Source of the DNA: Burkholderiales bacterium
GTDB taxonomy: Bacteria; Pseudomonadota; Gammaproteobacteria; Burkholderiales; SG8-41
Length of the DNA: 64,000 bases
Assembly: GCA_036262035.1 (NCBI GenBank)
Contig: DATAJS010000013.1
Span: 558,001 to 622,000 of the forward strand
Reading direction: 5' to 3'
Both the position numbers and the translations under genes were made by a program. A model generated the notes under the pieces. The model saw only the letters and a program-made list of their open reading frames with translations. It was not told where the DNA came from and made no database searches. Below are positions 2,684 through 53,500 of this stretch, in pieces (positions within the stretch are counted from its first letter, which is position 1; the number at the start of each line of letters is the position of its first letter).

Positions 2684-4384
2684 ATGAAAGACCGCCGCCG
2701 CACCGCGGGCCGCTTCGGCATCGCCCGCTTTCGCCCGCGCCTCGTCGACGCCGTCGCGGGCTACACGCGCGCGCAATTCGCGACCGACCTCGCCGCCGGC
2801 ATCACGGTCGGGGTGCTGGCGCTGCCGCTCGCGATCGCATTCGCGATCGCCTCCGGCATGACACCGCAGTCGGGTATCTACACTGCGATCGTCGCCGGGT
2901 TTCTCATATCGGCGCTCGGCGGCTCGCGCGTGCAGATCGGCGGGCCGACCGGCGCCTTCATCGTCATCGTCTACGGCATCGTCGCGCAGTACGGCGTGGC
3001 CAACCTCCTCCTCTGCACCATGATGGCCGGCGCGATGCTCTTCCTCATGGGGTTCTTCCAGATCGGCACCTGGATACGCTTCATCCCGGTGTCGGTCGTC
3101 ACCGGTTTCACCAAGGGCATCGCGGTGCTGATCCTGCTCTCGCAGGTGAAGGAGTTCTTTGGACTGAAAACCGAAGCGCTGCCGGCGGATTTCTTCGGCA
3201 AGATCGCGATGCTGTGGCAGGCCGCGCCGACGGTGAACGTGCAGAACGTGCTGCTCGCGGTCGGCTGCCTCGTCGTCATCCTCGCGTGGCCCAGGAAGTG
3301 GCGCACGATTCCGAGCCCGATCATCGCGCTGGTCCTCGGCACCGTTGCAGCCGCCGCGCTCGACCTGCGCGTGGAGACCATCGGCTCGCGCTTCGGCGAG
3401 ATGCCTTCGACGCTGCCTGCGCTCGTGTGGCCGGACATGGACCTCGCCACGCTGCGCTATCTCGTCTTTCCCGCTTTCACGATCGCGCTGCTGGGCGCGA
3501 TCGAGTCGCTGCTCTCCGCGCGCGTCTCCGACGCGATGATCGACGATCGGCACGATCCCAACCAGGAGCTGATGGCGCAGGGCATCGCCAATTTCGCGGT
3601 GCCGGTGTTCGGCGGCTTCTGCGCGACCGGAGCGATCGCACGCACGAGCACCAACGTGCTCATGGGCGGTCGCACGCCGGTGGCCGGCATGATCCACGCG
3701 GCTACCTTGCTCGTCGTGGTGCTCGTCGCCGCGCCGATCGCGAAATACGTGCCCCTGGCGACGCTCTCGGCGATCCTGGTCGTCGTCGCGTGGAACATGG
3801 GCGAATGGCACGACCTCAAGGATCTCAGGCGCTACACGCTCAACTATCGCGCGATCCTGCTGACGACTTTCGTGCTCACCGTCGTGCTCGACCTCACCGT
3901 CGCGGTCGAGGTCGGCATGGTGCTCGCGGCGGTCTTCTTCATCACGCGCGTGTCTCAGCTCACCGGCCTCCAGGAGCTGAGCGTCGAGACGCCCGCCGGC
4001 GTCGAGGCGTACGGGCTCTACGGCTCGCTCTTTTTCGGCGCCGCGACCAAGATCGAGCCGCTGATCGCGCTCGCGGGGCCCGAGCATCCGACGCGCGTGG
4101 TGGTGCTCGATATGCACAAGCTCATCAACGTCGACACGACCGGACTCGAGATCCTGGAAGCGCTGCACCGCAAGCTCGAGAAGAACGGCAAGACGCTCCT
4201 CATCGCCGAGGCCAACGAGCAGCCGCGCTCGCTCTTCGACCGCTCGGGTTTCAGCGAGCGCCTCGGCCGGCAGAACCTGGCGGTCGACCTCGCCGATGCG
4301 CTGGCGCGCGCGGCGCTGGTGACGGGATCCGGGGTCCGACCCTCGATGAAGCCGGCGTCAGACCCCGATAAAGCTGGGGTCTGA
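2684..4384 (+). CDS. SulP family anion transporter with STAS domain
   Basis: A 566-residue inner-membrane permease of the SulP (SLC26) family, which moves sulfate, bicarbonate, fumarate or similar anions. The start is placed at the ATG of MKDRRR because upstream in-frame codons overlap the operator region. About 10-12 hydrophobic segments run from residue 35 to 410, with the typical early DLAAGITVGVLALP and the GGFCATGAIARTSTN stretch. A cytoplasmic STAS domain follows, with VVVLDMHKLINVDTTGLEIL as its core strand and helix. The last dozen residues and the stop codon come from a family-B palindromic repeat, so the native C-terminus has been replaced or extended. Sulfate, carbonate and dicarboxylate transport cannot be told apart. 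Confidence 0.92.
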   Translation: MKDRRRTAGRFGIARFRPRLVDAVAGYTRAQFATDLAAGITVGVLALPLAIAFAIASGMTPQSGIYTAIVAGFLISALGGSRVQIGGPTGAFIVIVYGIVAQYGVANLLLCTMMAGAMLFLMGFFQIGTWIRFIPVSVVTGFTKGIAVLILLSQVKEFFGLKTEALPADFFGKIAMLWQAAPTVNVQNVLLAVGCLVVILAWPRKWRTIPSPIIALVLGTVAAAALDLRVETIGSRFGEMPSTLPALVWPDMDLATLRYLVFPAFTIALLGAIESLLSARVSDAMIDDRHDPNQELMAQGIANFAVPVFGGFCATGAIARTSTNVLMGGRTPVAGMIHAATLLVVVLVAAPIAKYVPLATLSAILVVVAWNMGEWHDLKDLRRYTLNYRAILLTTFVLTVVLDLTVAVEVGMVLAAVFFITRVSQLTGLQELSVETPAGVEAYGLYGSLFFGAATKIEPLIALAGPEHPTRVVVLDMHKLINVDTTGLEILEALHRKLEKNGKTLLIAEANEQPRSLFDRSGFSERLGRQNLAVDLADALARAALVTGSGVRPSMKPASDPDKAGV

Positions 4385-4388
4385 CCCC
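4331..4388. repeat. Interspersed palindromic repeat, family B, copy 1
   Basis: Three related units: GGGGTCCGACCC, GCGTCAGACCCC, and the perfect GGGGTCTGACCCC at 4376-4388. The TGA stop codon of the SulP gene lies inside the last unit. The same motif recurs at 8675-8717, inside the helicase gene. Confidence 0.8.
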
Positions 4389-4398
4389 ACGGCCGGGT

Positions 4399-8364: not shown

Positions 8365-10970
8365 AGCCCGAAGAGCGCAGGCTCGTCGCCGAGGCCGCGC
8401 GGCGGCTGCGCAAACAGTTGCGCCGCGAGCCGCCGAAAGAGGACGAGGGGCCGCCCACCACGATCGAATCCACGGCGCTGCCCATGCATCGGGGCCGCGC
8501 GATCGAGCGCGTCGAAGCGTGGTTCGCGCGGCGGGGCATCGAGCCGTTCGCGTTCCAGCGCGAGGTGTGGTCGCGTTACCTCGCGGGCGAGAGCGGGCTC
8601 GTGCACGCCTCCACCGGCACCGGCAAGACCCTCGCGGCGTGGCTGGGGCCGGTGATGGAGGCGCTCGACGCAAAACCGGGGTCTGACCCCGATAAAACCG
8701 GGGTCAGACCCCGGTTGCAAGTGCTGTGGGTCACGCCGATGCGCGCGCTCGCCGCCGACACGTTCAAGGCGCTGGCCGAGCCGCTGTCGGAGCTCGGTCT
8801 TGCCTGGCGTATCGGATTGCGCACCGGCGACACGCCGAGCGCCGCCCGCGCGCGGCAGGACCGCGCGGGCCTGCATGCGATGGTGACGACACCCGAATCG
8901 CTGTCGCTGCTGCTGTCGCGCAAGGACCAGGAGAAAACGTTCGGCGCGCTCACGCTGGTCGTGGTCGACGAATGGCACGAGCTCATCGGCAGCAAGCGCG
9001 GGGTGCAGGTCGAGCTCGCGCTCGCGCGATTGCGGCGGGTGGCGCCGCACTTGCGCGTATGGGGCCTGTCCGCGACGCTGGGCAACCTCGATCAGGCGCG
9101 CGAGGTGCTCGTTCCGCAAGGCTTTGGTGCGACGGTGTCGGGCACCGAGCCGAAAGAGATCGTCGTCGATTCGCTCATCCCGGCCGACGTGATGCGCTTC
9201 CCATGGGCGGGCCATCTCGGCATCCGCTCGGTCGCGGAGGTCGCCGCGGAGATCGACAAGAGCAACGCGACGCTCGTCTTCACCAACGTGCGCTCGCAGG
9301 CCGAGCTCTGGTATCGCGCGCTGCTCGATCACCGGCCCGACTGGGCAGGCCTGATCGGGCTGCATCACGGCTCGCTCGATCTCTCGGTCAGGCGCTGGGT
9401 GGAAGACGGCCTGCGCAACGGAACGCTGAAAGCCGCGGTGTGCACGTCGAGTCTCGACCTCGGTGTGGATTTCTCACCGGTCGACCGCGTGATCCAGATC
9501 GGCAGCCCCAAGAGCGTGGCGCGGCTGCTCCAGCGCGCGGGGCGCTCCGGCCATCGGCCCGGCGCCGCGAGCCGGATCACGTGCGTGCCGACGCACGCGC
9601 TCGAGCTCGTCGAAGCCGCGGCGGCGCGAGCCGCGGCGCGCGCGGGCGCGATCGAAGCGCGCAGGCCGCTGCGCGCGCCGCTCGACGTGCTCATCCAGCA
9701 CGTCGTCACGCTCGCGGTCGGCGAAGGCTTCAGCGAAGGCGCGCTGTACGACGAAGTGCGCACGACCCACGCCTACCGCGAGCTCACACGCGACGAATGG
9801 CGCTGGACGATCGATTTCGCGAGCGGCGGCGGCGTGCTCGCGGCGTATCCCGAATACCGCCGCATCGAGCGTGACGAGGACGGCGTCTACCGGGTAACCA
9901 ACCCCAAGCTCGCGCGCCGGCATTGCGTGCAGATCGGCACGATCGTCTCCGACGCGGTGGTCAACGTGCAGTTCATGCGCGGCGACAGGATCGGGAGCGT
10001 CGAGGAGAGCTTCCTCGCCAAGCTCTCGCCGGGCGACGTCTTCACCATCGGCGGCAAGGCCGTCGAGCTCGTTCGCATGCGCGACATGAACGCGTGGGTG
10101 AAGCGCGCCGGCAGCGGATCGTCCATCGTGCCGCGGTGGCTCGGCGGCAAGCTCTCGCTGTCGGGGGAGCTGTCGAAGCGCATACAGGACGAGCTGCAGC
10201 GGCCCGACGACTCGCCCGAAGTGCAGGCGGTGAAGCCGCTGATCGAGATGCAGCGCCGCCGGTCGCATGTGCCGGCGCCCGACGAGCTCCTGGTCGAGCT
10301 GCACGAGACGCGCGAAGGCGTGCACCTGTGCGTCTTTCCGTACGCCGGGCGCCACGTGCATTCGGGTCTCGCCGCGCTCGCCGCATGGCGCCTCGGACAG
10401 CGCTTCCCGCTCACCTTCAGCATGGCGTTCAACGATTACGGCTTCGAGCTGCTGTCGCCGACCGCTTACGGGATCGACGAAGTGCTGCTGAAAGCGCTGT
10501 TCGCGCGCGAGCGTGCGATGGACGATCTCCTGTCGAGCATCAACGCCGCCGAGCTCGCGCGCCGCCACTTCCGCGAGATCGCGCGCATCACCGGGCTGGT
10601 GTTCCAGGGCTATCCCGGCGACAGCCGCAGCGCGAAGCAGCTCCAGATCACGAGCGGCCTGCTCTACGACGTCTATGCGCGGCACGATCCCGACAATCTC
10701 CTGCTCGCACAGGCGAAGCGCGAAGTGCTCGACCGCGAGCTCGAGCTCGCGCGGCTCGAAGCGACGCTGGTCGATCTCGAAAGGCGCCGCATCGTGCTCG
10801 TCAGGCCCTCGCGCATGACGCCGCTCGCGCTCCCGCTCGTCGCCGAGCAGATGCGCAACAAGCTTTCGACCGAAAAGCTCGCGACGCGCGTGGAGCGGCT
10901 GCAGCTCGCGATGCAGAAACCCGACAGCAAACCACGTAAACAATCCCCTCCCCCTCAGGGGGAGGGTTAG
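8361..10970 (+). CDS. Ligase-associated DEXH-box DNA helicase (Lhr-Core type)
   Basis: An 869-residue superfamily 2 helicase. Motif I is STGTGKT (84-90), motif Ia TPMRALA (125-131), motif II DEWH (203-206), motif III SATLGN (237-242) and motif VI QRAGRSGH. After the two RecA domains come the winged helix and the long C-terminal part typical of Lhr-Core, which unwinds 3'-tailed duplexes in characterised relatives. The ATG overlaps the ligase stop as ATGA. Two repeat insertions are notable. About 14 residues (105-118, reading KPGSDPDKTGVRP) come from a family-B palindrome placed between motifs I and Ia. The last residues and the TAG stop come from a family-C repeat. Whether the insertion affects activity is unknown. 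Confidence 0.92.
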   Translation: MKPEERRLVAEAARRLRKQLRREPPKEDEGPPTTIESTALPMHRGRAIERVEAWFARRGIEPFAFQREVWSRYLAGESGLVHASTGTGKTLAAWLGPVMEALDAKPGSDPDKTGVRPRLQVLWVTPMRALAADTFKALAEPLSELGLAWRIGLRTGDTPSAARARQDRAGLHAMVTTPESLSLLLSRKDQEKTFGALTLVVVDEWHELIGSKRGVQVELALARLRRVAPHLRVWGLSATLGNLDQAREVLVPQGFGATVSGTEPKEIVVDSLIPADVMRFPWAGHLGIRSVAEVAAEIDKSNATLVFTNVRSQAELWYRALLDHRPDWAGLIGLHHGSLDLSVRRWVEDGLRNGTLKAAVCTSSLDLGVDFSPVDRVIQIGSPKSVARLLQRAGRSGHRPGAASRITCVPTHALELVEAAAARAAARAGAIEARRPLRAPLDVLIQHVVTLAVGEGFSEGALYDEVRTTHAYRELTRDEWRWTIDFASGGGVLAAYPEYRRIERDEDGVYRVTNPKLARRHCVQIGTIVSDAVVNVQFMRGDRIGSVEESFLAKLSPGDVFTIGGKAVELVRMRDMNAWVKRAGSGSSIVPRWLGGKLSLSGELSKRIQDELQRPDDSPEVQAVKPLIEMQRRRSHVPAPDELLVELHETREGVHLCVFPYAGRHVHSGLAALAAWRLGQRFPLTFSMAFNDYGFELLSPTAYGIDEVLLKALFARERAMDDLLSSINAAELARRHFREIARITGLVFQGYPGDSRSAKQLQITSGLLYDVYARHDPDNLLLAQAKREVLDRELELARLEATLVDLERRRIVLVRPSRMTPLALPLVAEQMRNKLSTEKLATRVERLQLAMQKPDSKPRKQSPPPQGEG
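8675..8717. repeat. Interspersed palindromic repeat, family B, copy 2 (inside the helicase gene)
   Basis: A perfect 17-bp inverted repeat: AACCGGGGTCTGACCCC, then a GATAAAACC-containing centre, then GGGGTCAGACCCCGGTT. It keeps the reading frame of the helicase and codes for residues about 105-118. The matching motif occurs at the end of the SulP gene (4331-4388). Confidence 0.85.
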
Positions 10971-14223: not shown

Positions 14224-14559
14224 ATGACCTACGAAGAGCTGACCCGCAAGCTGGACGCGATAGAAGCCGAGCTGCGCAACCTCGGATACCTCAAAGGCGA
14301 GGTCGGCGAGCCGGAGCGCGTCGACTCGGCGTTCGGCATGAACGAGATGTCGTTCGAAGGATGGCTCGCGCGCGTGTTCGTGCCGGCCGCGCGCCAGCGG
14401 ATCGCCGAGAAGGACCTGCCGGACGAGAGCCAGGTCGGGACCGCGGCGATCAAGAATCTCGACGGATGCACCGAAGCGGAGGAGCTGGTTTCGCTGCTGT
14501 GCGAGTTCGACCAGGCGGTCGAGGAGATGTCGGGCAAGCGGCGGCCGCGGTATTTTTAA
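14224..14559 (+). CDS. YqcC-like protein (DUF446)
   Basis: A 111-residue protein of the YqcC/DUF446 family: helical N-terminus, then MNEMSFEGWLARVFVPAARQ, the most conserved stretch. The function is unknown; in enterobacteria yqcC lies by the tRNA pseudouridine synthase gene truC, which is not present here. AGGAGG is positioned before the ATG. The stop codon abuts the left arm of the inverted-repeat element. Confidence 0.8.
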   Translation: MTYEELTRKLDAIEAELRNLGYLKGEVGEPERVDSAFGMNEMSFEGWLARVFVPAARQRIAEKDLPDESQVGTAAIKNLDGCTEAEELVSLLCEFDQAVEEMSGKRRPRYF

Positions 14560-15137
14560 AAGCAGATTAAGAACAAGGACGCAAAGGAAAAAGAAAGGAC
14601 GCGAAGGAAAAGCCAACTATTCAAAAAACCAAAGACCAAGGTGAAGGCAAGGGCGCCAAGCGGCTCTGACAGCGGTCGTGGTTACGATGTATCGGGTGGA
14701 TCCTCGTGAGATGGCCGATTTCGGCGGTTATCCCTTGCTGACGACGCGTTTGACGCCGTTGCGCATGTGCAGCGTGTTGAAATTGAGCAACAGGCCGAGC
14801 CTGAAGCCGCCGAGCTTCAGGTAACTGAGCAGTTGTGCGCGATGAAGATCGTGGAGGCGCTCGACGCATTTGATCTCGACCACCACTGTGCCGGCCACGA
14901 GCATGTCGAGGCGGTACGCGATCGGCAAGTATGCGCTGCCGAACTGGACCGGCATCGGAACCTGCTTTTGGACCGAAAGCTGCTGCCGCGTGGCGAGATG
15001 GTATTGCCACCATGGGCAGCGTTAGAACCGCTTGGCGACCTTGCCGTTCACTTTGGCCGTGCTTCTGTTTTTTGAATAACTACGCTTTTCCTTCGCGTCC
15101 TTTGTTTTCCCTTGGCGTCCTTGTTCTTCCCTGCTTT
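14558..15137. mobile_element. Inverted-repeat element (family D ends) with a truncated nuclease gene
   Basis: A 580-bp element with imperfect inverted arms of about 120 bp. Left arm 14558-14675 (plus strand) and right arm 15016-15137 (minus strand) share in order AAAGCAG, AAGAACAAGGACGC, AAAGGACGCGAAGGAAAAG, TATTCAAAAAAC, and GCCAAGCGG. The centre holds the 3' part of a GxxExxY gene. The element fills the whole gap between the YqcC-like and dnaE stop codons. No target-site duplication is evident and no transposase is present, so it is non-autonomous or decayed. A related, shorter set of arms occurs at 35040-35215. Confidence 0.75.
14728..15000 (-). pseudogene. 5'-truncated GxxExxY / PD-(D/E)XK-type small nuclease
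   Basis: Reading from 15000 leftward gives HLATRQQLSVQKQVPMPV and then a sequence ending in NGVKRVVSKG. It matches the C-terminal two-thirds of the GxxExxY family (about 125 residues when whole). YRLDMLV and VVVEIKC supply the aspartate and the ExK of a PD-(D/E)XK core, and AQLLSYLKLGGFRLGLLLNF is the family's best conserved block. The N-terminal part with the GxxExxY motif is gone, and an in-frame TAA lies at 15022-15024, inside the inverted-repeat arm. An ATG at 14955 could start a 75-residue product, but that would lack the first part of the fold. Confidence 0.7.
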
Positions 15138-15144
15138 CGATTTG

Positions 15145-18100
15145 CTACTGAGCGTACGCGCTGGCCGGGTAGACGATCTGCACGTTCTCCGGCTTCACCC
15201 ACTCTTCGAGCGAGCGGATGAGATCGTCGGAGAGTGAGATCCTCCAGTCGTCGCCGAGCAGGATCTCGCAGCTCGCGCCCTTGTTGTAGTACTCGATCTT
15301 GACCGGCAGGCTGCCGCTGCGGTACGGGCCGAGCAGCTCTTTCAGCTTCGCGCCCGAGGATGCGCCGTTGCAGCGGATCCTGATGCCGCGCGCGTAGCGG
15401 TTGCGCGCGGTCGAAAGGTCGAAGAGCTTCTCCGCCGAAATCCGCAAGCCGCCCGAGAACTCGTCGTTCGCGACCTTGCCTTCGACGATGAGGAGCTGGT
15501 CTTCCTTCAGCATGTGGCGGTGCTGCTCGAAGAGCTCGTTGAAGACGGTGAGCTCGACGCGCGCGTGTCCGTCGTCGAGCAGGATCACCGCCATGCGCCC
15601 GCGGCGCGTCATCTGGATGCGCAGGCTGTTCATGATGCCCGCGAGCAGCACGCCGTTCGCGGGCTGGAGCCTGTCGAGCCGCGTGTTGATGAAGCTCGAA
15701 AGCTCCGGCGCGTAGCTCTGGAACGGATGGCCCGAGAGGTAATAGCCCAGCGCGCTCTTCTCGTTCTGCAGCTTCACCAGATCGGTCCAGCGCGGGCACG
15801 CAACGAGCGACACCGCCGAGCCCGGCTCTTCCGCATCGCCGAACAGGCTCACCTGGTTGACGGCGCGGCTCGCCTGCTCCGCGCTCTCCAGCGCGATGCC
15901 GACCGACGCCATCAGGCTCGCACGATGGTCGTTCAGCGTGTCGAAAGCGCCCGCCTTCACCAGCGACTCCACGGTGCGGCGGTTCACGATCCTTTTATCG
16001 ACGCGATGGCAGAAATCGAAGAGGTCCCTGAACGGACCGTTCCGGGTGCGCTCTTCGACGATGTGGTTGATCGCGCCTTCGCCGCTGCCCTTGATGCCGC
16101 CGAGGCCGTAGCGGATAGCCTCGCGATTCACCGGCTCGAAGCGGTAACCCGAGAGGTTGATGTCGGGCGGCAGGATTCTGACCCCGTTGGCGACCGAGTC
16201 GTCGACCAGCCCCTGCACCTTGTCGGTGTCCGCCATGACCGCCGACATGTTCGCCGCCATGAAGGCCGCGGTGTGGTGCGCTTTCATGTAGGCGGTGTGG
16301 TACGCGACCAGCGCGTACGCCGCGGCGTGCGACTTGTTGAAGCCGTAGCCCGCGAACTTCTCCATCAGGTCGAAGAGCTCGTCGGCCTTCTCTTCGGAGA
16401 GCCCGTTCTCCGCGGCGCCCTTGCGGAAGATCAGGCGGTGCTCCGCCATCTCTTCCGGCTTCTTCTTGCCCATCGCGCGGCGCAGCAGGTCGGCGCCGCC
16501 GAGGCTGTAGCGGCCGATGATCTGCGCCATCTGCATCACCTGCTCCTGGTAGACCATGATGCCGTAGGTCTCGGAGAGGATGGGCTCGACGCGCGGGTCG
16601 GGATAGACCACGCGCTCGCGGCCGTGCTTGCGCTCGCAGAACGACGGGATCAGGTCCATCGGGCCCGGGCGATACAGCGCGACCAGCGCGATGATGTCGC
16701 CGAAACGGTCGGGCTTGGCGCGCTTCAACATGTCGCGCATGCCGCGCGATTCGAACTGGAACACCGCGCTGGTGTTCGCAGTCCAGAAGATCTTGTACGA
16801 CTCGCGATCGTCGAGCGGCAGCTCCTCGAGCCTGATGTCCGACGAAGCGTCGAGCTGCCTGATATAGCGCAGCGTCCAGTCGAGGATGGTGAGCGTGGTG
16901 AGGCCCAGGAAGTCGAACTTCACCAGGCCGACCGCCTCGACGTCGTCCTTGTCGTACTGGCTGACGGCGGCGTCGCTGCCGTCGGCGATGTACAGCGGAC
17001 AGAAATCGGTGAGCTTGCCCGGCGCGATCAGCACGCCGCCCGCGTGCATGCCGACGTTGCGCGTCAGGCCTTCGAGCTTGTCCGCGAGCGCGAGGAGCTC
17101 GGCGACTTCTTCCTCGTTCTTCTCGCGCTCCTTGAGCTGCGGCTCCATCTCGCGCGCGTCGGCGAGCGTGATGTGCTTGCCCGGCTGGAACGGGATCAGC
17201 TTGGCGAGCTGGTCGCAGAAGTTGTAGCCGAGGTCGAGCACGCGGCCGACGTCGCGCACCACCGCTTTCGCCGCCATGGTGCCGAAGGTCGCGATCTGCG
17301 ACACGCTGTCCGCGCCATACTTGCTCTTGACGTAATCGATGACGCGGTCGCGCCCGTCCTGGCAGAAGTCGATGTCGAAGTCGGGCATCGACACGCGCTC
17401 GGGATTCAGGAAGCGCTCGAACAGCAGGTTGTAGCGCAGCGGGTCGAGGTCGGTGATGCCGAGGCTGTACGCGACGAGCGAGCCCGCGCCCGAGCCGCGG
17501 CCGGGGCCGACCGGCACGCCGTTGTTCTTCGCCCAGTTGATGAAGTCCGCGACGATGAGGAAGTAGCCGGGGAAACCCATCTGGATGATGGTGCCGGTCT
17601 CGAAGTCGAGGCGCTGGAGATAGCGCGGCCGCTCCTTGTCGCGCTCGGCGGCGTCGGGGTACAGCGCTTCGAGGCGTTTTTCCAGCCCTTCCAGCGCGCG
17701 GGTCTTCAGGTACTCGTCGAGGCCGACGTTGTTCGGCGTCGGGAACAGCGGAAGCTGGCTCTTGCCGAGAGTCAGCGTGAGGTTGCAGCGCTTGGCGATC
17801 TCGACGCTGTTCTGGAGCGCTTCCGGGATGTCCGCGAAGAGCTCGGCCATCTCGGCCTGCGTCTTGAAATACTGCTCGCGGTGAAAGGTCTTAGGCCGGC
17901 GCTGGTCGGCGAGGATGTAGCCTTCGGAGATGCACACGCGCGCTTCGTGGGCGCGGAAGTCGTCCTGCTTCACGAACTGGATCGGGTGGGTCGCCACAGG
18001 CGGCAGGCCGAGCTCGGCCGCGAGCTCGACCGCGCGCTGCACGTGCACCGCGAGCGGCAGCACCGCCGCGCCGCTCGTCATTGCGCCCTGCCCGATCCGC

Positions 18101-35027: not shown

Positions 35028-35039
35028 GGCGTAAGTGAC

Positions 35040-35215
35040 CGCCAAGGACGCGAAGGACGCCAAGGAAACCTGAACGGTCATCGCAAGGCGCGAAGCGCCG
35101 TGGCGATCCCGTGGCGCGCACACGGCCTTTCGTTCGTAACGCGATTGCTTCGTCGCTGGCGCTCCTCGCAATGACGTACTTGATTTTCCTTGGCGTCCTT
35201 TGCGGTTAAACAGCT
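35040..35215. repeat. Nested inverted-repeat composite (family D ends, family E core)
   Basis: The outer arms ACCGCCAAGGACGCGAAGGA (left) and the inverse of ACCGCAAAGGACGCCAAGG (right) match the family-D ends of the element at 14558-15137. Inside is a second inverted pair: GGTCATCGCAAGGCGCGAAG (left) against CGTCATTGCGAGGAGCGCCA (inverse of right), a widespread TCATTGCGAGG-type repeat. There is no coding sequence. The composite fills the 200-bp gap between typA and the haemoglobin gene. Confidence 0.75.
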
Positions 35216-50500: not shown

Positions 50501-53500
50501 GGTGCCCCCGTAGATCGAGAGCGGCACGCCGCCGATGCCGAGATCGCCGGTGCCCGAGATGAAGATGCCGCCGGCCGCAGCGGGCGTCAACGCTTCGAGC
50601 GCCGGTGTGGTCACGCGGATCGGCTCGGCAAGCGTGCCGATACTCCCTGTCGCGCCGGTCGTCCCCATCTGCAGGAACAGCGACGTGGTGCCGGTCAGCA
50701 TCGACGATGCGTCGGCGCGAAGAATTTTTCCGTTCGCGGTCGGGCCGTTGTGCTGCACCGCTACGTTCGCAGCGGTGATGCTGGCGACGGTGATGGCGCC
50801 GCTCGTCGCGGCGTGGCCGAAGCCCGGCGCAATGGTCAGGAAAACGTCGGCGTTGCCCGCGTTGATCGTGGTGCCGGGGGCCATCGTGATGTTGGCGGCG
50901 CCGGGGTCGCGGAAGGCGCCCTGCACGCCGTTGGCGACGGTCTCGTTCGCGACGAGCGTCAGCGTCGCGTTGTCGGTGGTGATGTTCGAATTGAGGGTGA
51001 TGCTGCGGCCCGCGCGCATCGTCAGCGCGCCGCCGTCGCCGGGCGCGGTCGTGACGATGTCCGAGCCGGCCGCGAGCGTGATGTCGTTGTTCGCCTGCAA
51101 CTCGACCGCTGTGCCGGTGTTGGTGATCGACGTGATCGCCGCGGGCCTGATGGTCACGGCGCCCGCCGGGTTGTTCGCGAAAGTGAGCGGGCTGAAGATC
51201 GATTCGCCGCTGCCGTCGAAGATCTGCAGCCGGCCGCTTTCGTCTGCGCCGTTGTCGTATAGCGGGCTGGCGACGAGCACGCGGTTGGCCGAGATGGGCC
51301 TGACGGCCGCAGCCGCGAAATCATTACTGGTGGCACCGACGAGGCTGTTGGACGCCGTCACCGAACCGGTCGTCCCGGTGCTGCCGTTGCCCCACGTCAC
51401 CGCGCCGGCGTTCGCCACGGCGCCGTTGCGCCAGCTGGCGCTCAACACGACGTAGTTGCCGTTCGGCAACGCCGTCACACCACCGTCGCCCACCGAATCC
51501 CCGGCAGCGCTGCCCACCAGGCTGTTCGACGCGCTGATCGCTCCCGTGACGCCGCTCGCACCGTTGCCCCACGTCGACGCGCCGACGTCGGCGTTCCCGC
51601 CGTTGTCCCACGCGGGATTGGTGACCACGTAATTGCCGTTGGTGAGCGCCGTCACCGTCATGCCGAGGCCGTCGGCCGGGGTCGAGCCCACCAGGCTGTT
51701 GGCGGGGCTCACGATGCCCGGATCCGCGGCCGCGCCGTTGCGCAGCGTCGCGGCGCCCATGCCGCTGTTCCAGTTCGGGCTCGTCACGACGTAGTTGCCG
51801 TTGGTGAGCGCGGTCACGCCGCCGAGGCCCACCTCATCGTTCAGCACGTTGCCGGTGAGACTGTTGGCCGCGCTCACCGCGCCGGTGATGCCCGTCGTGC
51901 CGTTACCCCACGTGGCCGCGCCGACGTTCTGCACCGCGGCGTCCCACAACGGGCTGGCCACGACGTAGTTCCCGTTCGACAGCGCGGTCACCCCGCCGGA
52001 GCCGACGCGATCGTTCGCGATCGAACCGACGAGACTGTTGGCCGCGCTCACCGCGCCGGTGATGCCCATCGTGCCGTTGCCCCACGTGACCGCGCCCGCC
52101 TGCGATACCGCGCCGTTGGCCCAGAACGGGCTCACCGCGACGTAATTGCCGTTGGTGAGCGCGAATACGGTGCCGGCGCCGACCATGTCATCGGCAGTGG
52201 TGCCGACCAGACTGTTCGCGGCGCTCACCGCACCGGTGACGCCGGTGGTGCCGTCACCCCACGTGACATGGCCGGCGTTCGCTACCGCACCGTTGGTCCA
52301 CGTGGCGCTGTGGACCGTGTAGTTGCCGTTGGTGAGGGCCGTGCCGCCGGAACCGACCTTGTCCTCGGCGGTCGTGCCGACCAGGCTGTTCGCAGCCGTC
52401 ACCGCGCCGACGACGCCGGTCGTGCCGTTACCCCAGGTTGCCGCGCCGGCCCTCAGCGCCCCGCCGTTACGCCAGGAGGCGCTCAGCACCACATAGTTTC
52501 CGTTGGTGAGCACGACGACCTGGTTGAAGCCCACCGCGTCAAACGGGCTGGTGCCGACCAGGCTGTTCGCAGCCGTCACCGCACCGACGATGCCCGTCGT
52601 GCCGTCGCCCCAGGTTGCCGCGCCGGCCCCCAACGTGGCGCCGTTGTTCCAGAGCGGGCTCATCACGACGTAATTGCCGTTGGTCAGCGCCGTGGCCCCG
52701 TGATATCCAACGCCGTCGTTGGCCTGTGTGCCGGCCAGGCTGTTGAGCGCGGTGACGGCGCCGGTGACACCCGTGGTGCCGTTGCCCCACGTCGCCGCGC
52801 CGGCGTCGGATATCCCGGCGTTATCCCACGAAGGACTCGAGACCACGTAGTTGCCGTTGGTGAGCGCCCTGACCCCTGCGAAGCCCACTGTAGCGGCTGA
52901 GACCAGATCGTTCGGGCTGGATCCCACGAGGCTGTTCGCGGCACTGACGACACCGGCCACGCCGCTCGTAGCGCTGCCCCACGTCGCCGCACCGGCGGCG
53001 TTGTTCCAGTTGGGGCTGCTCACGACGAAATTGCCGTTGACGGGCAGTGCGGTCACGCCGCCGCTGCCGACGCGGTCGGACGCCGCAGAACCGGTGAGCG
53101 TCGAGATCAGCGCACCGGTGCCGCCGTTGAACAGATAGACCGCGCCCGCGTCGGCTGCGACGAAGTCGTCGGTCGGCACGGGCGCGACGATGTTGCCGTT
53201 GGCCAGGACCACCGCGCCTGCACCGAAATTGTTGTCCGGGTTGAGATTCGGATCGACGAGGTCCCTCGCGGCAGGACCGCTGCCCGCGGCATCGATGACG
53301 ATGTTCTTCGGATCGAGCAGCAGCACGCCCGGTTTGCCGTTCGGCGCGCCCGCATCGGCCATGCCGCCGAACACGAGATTTTCCTTGCCCGAAACTTCGA
53401 TGCGCCCGCCGTCGCCGCCTTGCGCGCCGCCGCGGGCGCTGATCGCGCCGAAGAACTGCGTGTCGCGATCGGACCACACGACCACCTTGCCGCCGTCGCC

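Follow-up and report, generated by a model that had tools for sequence, protein, structure and literature searches.

The window, a stretch of 64,000 nucleotides from a Burkholderiales contig (DATAJS010000013.1), carries an inverted-repeat element with long arms around the remnant of a small nuclease gene of the GxxExxY family (Table 1). The element occupies the whole gap between two stop codons, that of a small open reading frame (ORF) ending at 14559, which we take to be YqcC-like, and that of a dnaE-like ORF at 15145, as had been described for a unit of 580 bp. The arms pair over 63 nt (14569–14631 with 15066–15128; 83% complementary), and a second stretch of 44 nt continues the first (14627–14670 with 15021–15064; 73% complementary). 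The imperfect inverted arms of the original prediction are real, at a length of about 102–108 nt rather than 120 bp. The local inverted-repeat score of the element is 59, and scores of at least 20 occur in 3% of mismatched flank pairs.

Table 1. Arms and gene remnant in the window, by position, strand and content.
Feature	Position	Strand	Description
Left inverted arm	14569..14670	+	Iterated AAGGACGC(A/G)AAGGA units, followed by TATTCAAAAAAC and then by CAAGG/GCGCCAAGCGG blocks
GxxExxY / PDDEXK_3 nuclease gene remnant	14740..14991	-	Profile positions 35-116
Right inverted arm	15021..15128	-	Reverse complement of left arm: 83% over 63 nt, 73% over next 44 nt
Left arm of gene-less pair	35037..35068	+	GACCGCCAAGGACGCGAAGGACGCCAAGGAAA, 9-nt units
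Right arm of gene-less pair	35185..35209	-	TTTCCTTGGCGTCCTTTGCGGTTAA

The enclosed gene scores above the curated cut-offs of both TIGR04256 (E 1.1e-19; 70.9 bits, cut-off 35) and PF13366, PDDEXK_3 (E 1e-20; 74.7 bits, cut-off 22). It comprises the C-terminal two thirds of the protein and retains RLDMLV and VEIK, in agreement with the earlier recognition of a C-terminal GxxExxY fragment with readable PD-(D/E)XK residues. The N-terminal third, which bears the GxxExxY motif, is absent, and this copy does not have the motif with a full catalytic core; the window copy is thus a remnant. A related pair of ends without a gene had been placed at 35040–35215, and such a pair is present, formed by CGCCAAGGACGCGAAGGACGCCAAG and inverted CGCAAAGGACGCCAAG.

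Copies of the arms are numerous in the same genome. The left arm of the window element has matches at about a dozen other places, and one unit pair, AAGGACGCNAAGG, occurs at 434 exact sites, vs. 1 for the reversed pattern used as a control. Most of these sites belong to gene-less inverted pairs, which fold into long hairpins; the genome has three GxxExxY genes. In 400 kb that were examined in detail (chosen partly for known matches), all 16 neighboring arm pairs no more than 250 bp apart are inverted, and there are 12 additional solo arms. The loops of many gene-less pairs (35077–35176 in the window, and elements E01–E11) are occupied by palindromic repeats of another kind (GTCATTGCGAGGAGCG...CTCCTCGCAATGAC or GGATTCCCGC...GCGGGAATGACG), an arrangement that resembles the nesting of one repeat family in another. 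The two other GxxExxY genes of this genome are full-length; inverted arms enclose these as well, with units that differ from those of the window (ACCGCAAAGGACGCAAAGGACGCAAAGG at locus L026 and AACACGGAGGACACGGAGG at L027). Because full-length genes were found in arms of other unit sequences, a survey of GxxExxY loci was undertaken.

The GxxExxY genes came from three sources: 60 relatives, the phylum (299 genomes), and a domain-wide collection, which supplied 80 loci and includes Planctomycetota, Chloroflexota, Acidobacteriota, Cyanobacteria, Bacteroidota, and two archaea. Co-occurrence was assessed on a search of 60 genomes of the family, which also contributed loci to the dN/dS, period, and motif counts. 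The gene is patchily distributed (25 of 60 relatives). Among relatives, an inverted-repeat score of at least 15 across the gene was obtained at 43 of 48 testable GxxExxY loci vs. 3 of 30 loci of ParE toxin genes, a control family that is similarly small and patchy in the same genomes; with this control, the idea that small accessory genes generally have such arms was rejected. The architecture extends across many phyla, with scores of at least 16 at 74% of 172 loci vs. 8% of mismatched left and right flanks. A motif test that does not use arm pairing found iterated C-R-C-N-R-A-K units directed inward on both sides at 67% of 183 GxxExxY loci and outward at 4%; the inward arrangement was found at 0 of 27 ParE loci, 0 of 27 loci of S23 genes (see below), and 0.4% of random positions. 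The consensus rests on the search template, and its invariant positions are partly so by construction; the arms themselves were first noticed without this template. The period of the arms at GxxExxY loci is mostly 8–10 nt, and the unit sequence varies between elements, is the same in both arms of one element, and follows the protein clade. At one betaproteobacterial locus (L136, about 3960–4395), the element lies directly between two genes that are presumably trpE and trpG, an insertion inside an operon. In a family of another class of the same phylum (the G028-like group f54), GxxExxY occurs in most sampled genomes at up to five copies each, far above the copy number in other families.

The more similar two proteins are, the more similar are their arms (Mantel r 0.34; null SD 0.03; all 2000 permutations below 0.10). 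At the level of single residues, K19 and N85 are present in 11 of 11 proteins whose units end in T; N85 or K19 occurs in none or nearly none of the 98 proteins whose units end in G. This covariation may largely reflect shared descent of gene and arms; it shows that the two move together as a unit, and it is compatible with recognition of the units by the protein and does not prove it. Type matching is also seen between whole genomes. The AAGGACGCNAAGG repeat and CACAGAGGNCACAGAG were counted in 60 genomes of the family, and nuclease clades were assigned by the nearest reference protein. Genomes with a clade D nuclease contain 19–220 CACAGAGG repeats, vs. a median of 1 in all others (p 1.5e-6; within genera 5e-5), and clade A co-occurs with AAGGACGC repeats (p 4e-5; within genera 3e-4; 60 genomes). 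The crossed combinations of clade and repeat give a weaker signal that does not vanish (p 0.02 and 0.001 by within-genus permutation), and the type specificity is therefore strong but incomplete. Some genomes (G009, G359, and G002) have many repeats and no detected matching gene, which would need gene loss or incomplete assembly.

Sites that differ in occupancy between relatives bear on mobility. One intergenic site, beside a gene that we take to encode a fumarylacetoacetate-hydrolase-like protein, was followed through 60 genomes, and its state (empty, gene-less, or filled) varies among relatives; identity at the followed sites is roughly 74–87%, which is too low to read exact junctions. Six genomes have a short, armless site (25 to 95 bp), and four or five have gene-less pairs there, of several unit types. 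A GxxExxY gene is found at the site in three genomes, with two unit types among them, and an S23 gene in two, with a third (G035) suggested by coordinates only. Within the genus, G000 has a gene-less pair at a place where G001 and G002 lack one. These varied occupants imply that elements of different types have settled more than once in this one intergenic space, and empty orthologous sites, on which the original prediction depended, do exist. At the window site, the orthologues beside dnaE in relatives have either no element at all, or gene-less pairs, or S23-type arms; a precise empty site beside dnaE was not found in these relatives, where the other neighbor gene differs. No target-site duplication was detectable, as direct repeats of 4–8 nt around 118 elements did not exceed those of shuffled pairs.

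The median dN/dS of the enclosed gene is 0.06 (19 related pairs, with several dS values near saturation), and this purifying selection indicates a function for which the GxxExxY gene is retained. Structure prediction (pLDDT 95.9) gives a fold whose nearest solved structure is that of the Cas4-type protein SSO0001 (PDB 4ic1; Z 9.6, rmsd 3.1, 96 residues). Hjc is weaker (Z 7.1), and an Hjc-like fold as the closest was ruled out by this ranking; further matches are various PD-(D/E)XK nucleases, with the homing endonuclease I-Bth0305I among the weak ones. D62, E72, K74, and Q86-x3-Y90 are invariant or nearly so among GxxExxY proteins, and this arrangement of D/E/K and Q-x3-Y is the pattern of RecB/Cas4-type nucleases. 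The likeness to these nucleases lies in the predicted fold and the conserved catalytic residues; unlike them, GxxExxY proteins are about 116–130 residues long and have no CRISPR context, and by sequence they had no match to any solved structure at E <0.9. As for vehicles, a tblastn search of 50,697 phage records gave no match, and relatives of GxxExxY were found in 8 of 72,556 plasmid records, all predicted to be non-mobilizable.

A second gene family, S23 (23S_rRNA_IVP), has a similar setting. At 24 of 29 loci in relatives (L076–L105), the S23 gene is enclosed by inverted iterated arms, with a period of 7–8 nt and units unrelated to those of GxxExxY (AGGATTG, GTGATTA, and GGTGAGC types), and one host site can carry either an S23 or a GxxExxY element, depending on the genome. 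The S23 protein is a four-helix bundle with no known nuclease site. S23 genes also occur in rRNA intervening sequences, which have terminal inverted repeats and a mobility that has been proposed, not shown (PMC4990558). Those intervening sequences (e.g., in Coxiella burnetii; PMC4990558) have in common with the GxxExxY elements one small gene, terminal inverted repeats, sporadic occurrence, and a proposed selfish nature; they differ in the unrelated protein, in the period (7–8 vs. 8–10 nt), and in the units. They are located in rRNA, whereas the GxxExxY elements examined lie in intergenic DNA and the S23 genes of the window's relatives lie outside rRNA. The window copy, between protein genes and with a GxxExxY gene rather than an S23 gene, is not such an intervening sequence.

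We consider it fairly probable that the window unit descends from a REPIN-like mobile repeat and has decayed, that the full form of this repeat carries a gene for its own nuclease, and that this nuclease would move the repeats. The original prediction of a mobile repeat that carries a small nuclease in its full form, as REP sequences have RAYT genes, has gained support from the survey of genes and arms, from type matching in genomes, and from the three states of the orthologous site. At face value, one of the outcomes named beforehand as refuting it was obtained, since most arms enclose no gene; this holds for REPs and RAYTs as well, and the link to GxxExxY appears instead at the level of genomes, where repeats and genes co-occur by type. 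The elements would exist in three forms: a full form with the GxxExxY gene between inverted arms of 8–10 nt units, gene-less inverted pairs of roughly 60–200 bp, which would be the most numerous form, and solo arms, which are probably remnants. Each nuclease clade is associated with its own unit sequence. By analogy with REPIN/RAYT, the units may become exposed by forming a hairpin or cruciform where the DNA is single-stranded or supercoiled, and we infer that the cognate Cas4/RecB-like PD-(D/E)XK nuclease binds the exposed units, cuts at or near the base of the hairpin or cruciform, and thereby drives dispersal. The released or copied hairpin would then be joined into another intergenic site without target duplication, and gene-less pairs would depend for their movement on a full copy, whose nuclease would act in trans.

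The likeness to REPIN/RAYT systems (PMC3116915) is extensive: both have an excess of extragenic inverted doublets without genes, which form hairpins and reach hundreds of copies, and one or a few presumed mover genes per genome, flanked by the same repeat; repeat type matches gene clade, with GxxExxY here in the place of RAYT; solo copies are probably remnants, and most repeats enclose no gene. The systems differ in that the arms are here arrays of 8–10 nt units whose sequence varies widely between elements, and in the enzyme, which is a PD-(D/E)XK nuclease with a predicted Cas4/RecB-like fold rather than an HUH/Y1 transposase. Because the arm-enclosed gene does not encode a Y1 (HUH) tyrosine transposase, the GxxExxY elements are not members of REPIN/RAYT. 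Miniature inverted-repeat transposable elements (MITEs) and DDE insertion sequences resemble them in having short inverted ends and gene-less derivatives, but the GxxExxY elements have iterated arms, no DDE transposase, and no target-site duplication.

The strongest rival, which we regard as unlikely but deserving of some weight, takes the inverted iterated arms as the selfish part, moved by another machine (RAYT, a reverse transcriptase, or replication and repair), with GxxExxY and S23 proteins either carried along as passengers or acting as accessory binders to the benefit of their own element. The occurrence of two unrelated proteins in one architecture is consistent with this, as are the majority of arms that enclose no gene and the Avd protein of diversity-generating retroelements, a four-helix bundle related to S23 that acts as an accessory to a reverse transcriptase. 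Against such a machine, period and unit class are specific to each protein, and C-R-C-N-R-A-K units flank none of the 27 S23 loci on both sides; moreover, repeat type follows nuclease clade even within genera, and the nuclease is under strong purifying selection.

Under homing-type spread, the nuclease would cut arms or pairs without a gene, and repair templated by a full copy would convert these, so that the gene would spread among pre-existing repeats that are not themselves moved. A small PD-(D/E)XK nuclease with I-Bth0305I among its weak fold matches, the presence of gene-less and filled pairs at one orthologous site, and the failure to find target duplications would all suit this account. 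It appears improbable to us, since gene and arms change type together, whereas homing would put one clade into many arm types, and it leaves the origin of hundreds of gene-less pairs unexplained. Least probable is a non-mobile role, with the arms as host regulatory hairpins (mRNA ends, terminators, or attenuators) and the nuclease as a local regulator or defense protein. The arms do form long stable hairpins, the elements examined lie between genes, and the nuclease is under purifying selection; yet presence is patchy (25 of 60 relatives), gene-less copies number in the hundreds, orthologous sites are empty in some genomes and filled in others, and several element types have occupied one site independently, all of which argues against it.

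The S23 parallel works in two directions with respect to the preferred reading of a nuclease-bearing mobile repeat: it helps the view of such elements as a class and weakens the view that the nuclease is necessary, and a nuclease may not be required for this dispersal. Slightly short of an even chance, in our judgment, is the broader proposal that GxxExxY (PD-(D/E)XK) and S23/IVP (four-helix bundle), although unrelated, each define a class of minimal mobile repeat, with one gene in inverted iterated arms, a protein-specific period (8–10 or 7–8 nt), arm-matched and element-specific units, and gene-less copies mobilized in trans. If true, such DNA would be mobile by a strategy that involves no known transposase.

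GxxExxY genes are frequently annotated and rank among the commonest 'hypothetical' families, and iterated repeats of the CACAGAGGACACAGAGG type are scattered through many genomes; the present data tie the two together. The nuclease thereby gains a substrate to test, with a specificity predicted from the adjoining repeat, and if it moves the repeats, REP-like DNA would have a mobilizing enzyme of a hitherto unknown kind. Through the S23 parallel, movement of the rRNA intervening sequences becomes testable in the same manner. In those parts of the open-licence literature that were available, no relevant paper on GxxExxY or on TIGR04256/PF13366 was found, and novelty is judged against open papers only.

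Two further repeats were observed in the window. CGGGGTCAGACCCCGAT forms short tandem copies at 4329–4388 and 8672–8713, and elsewhere in the genome adjoins several solo arms of the window's arm type (L002, L007, and L014). A tandem array of approximately 177-bp units (6.2 copies, 72% matches) extends from 51776 to 52867.
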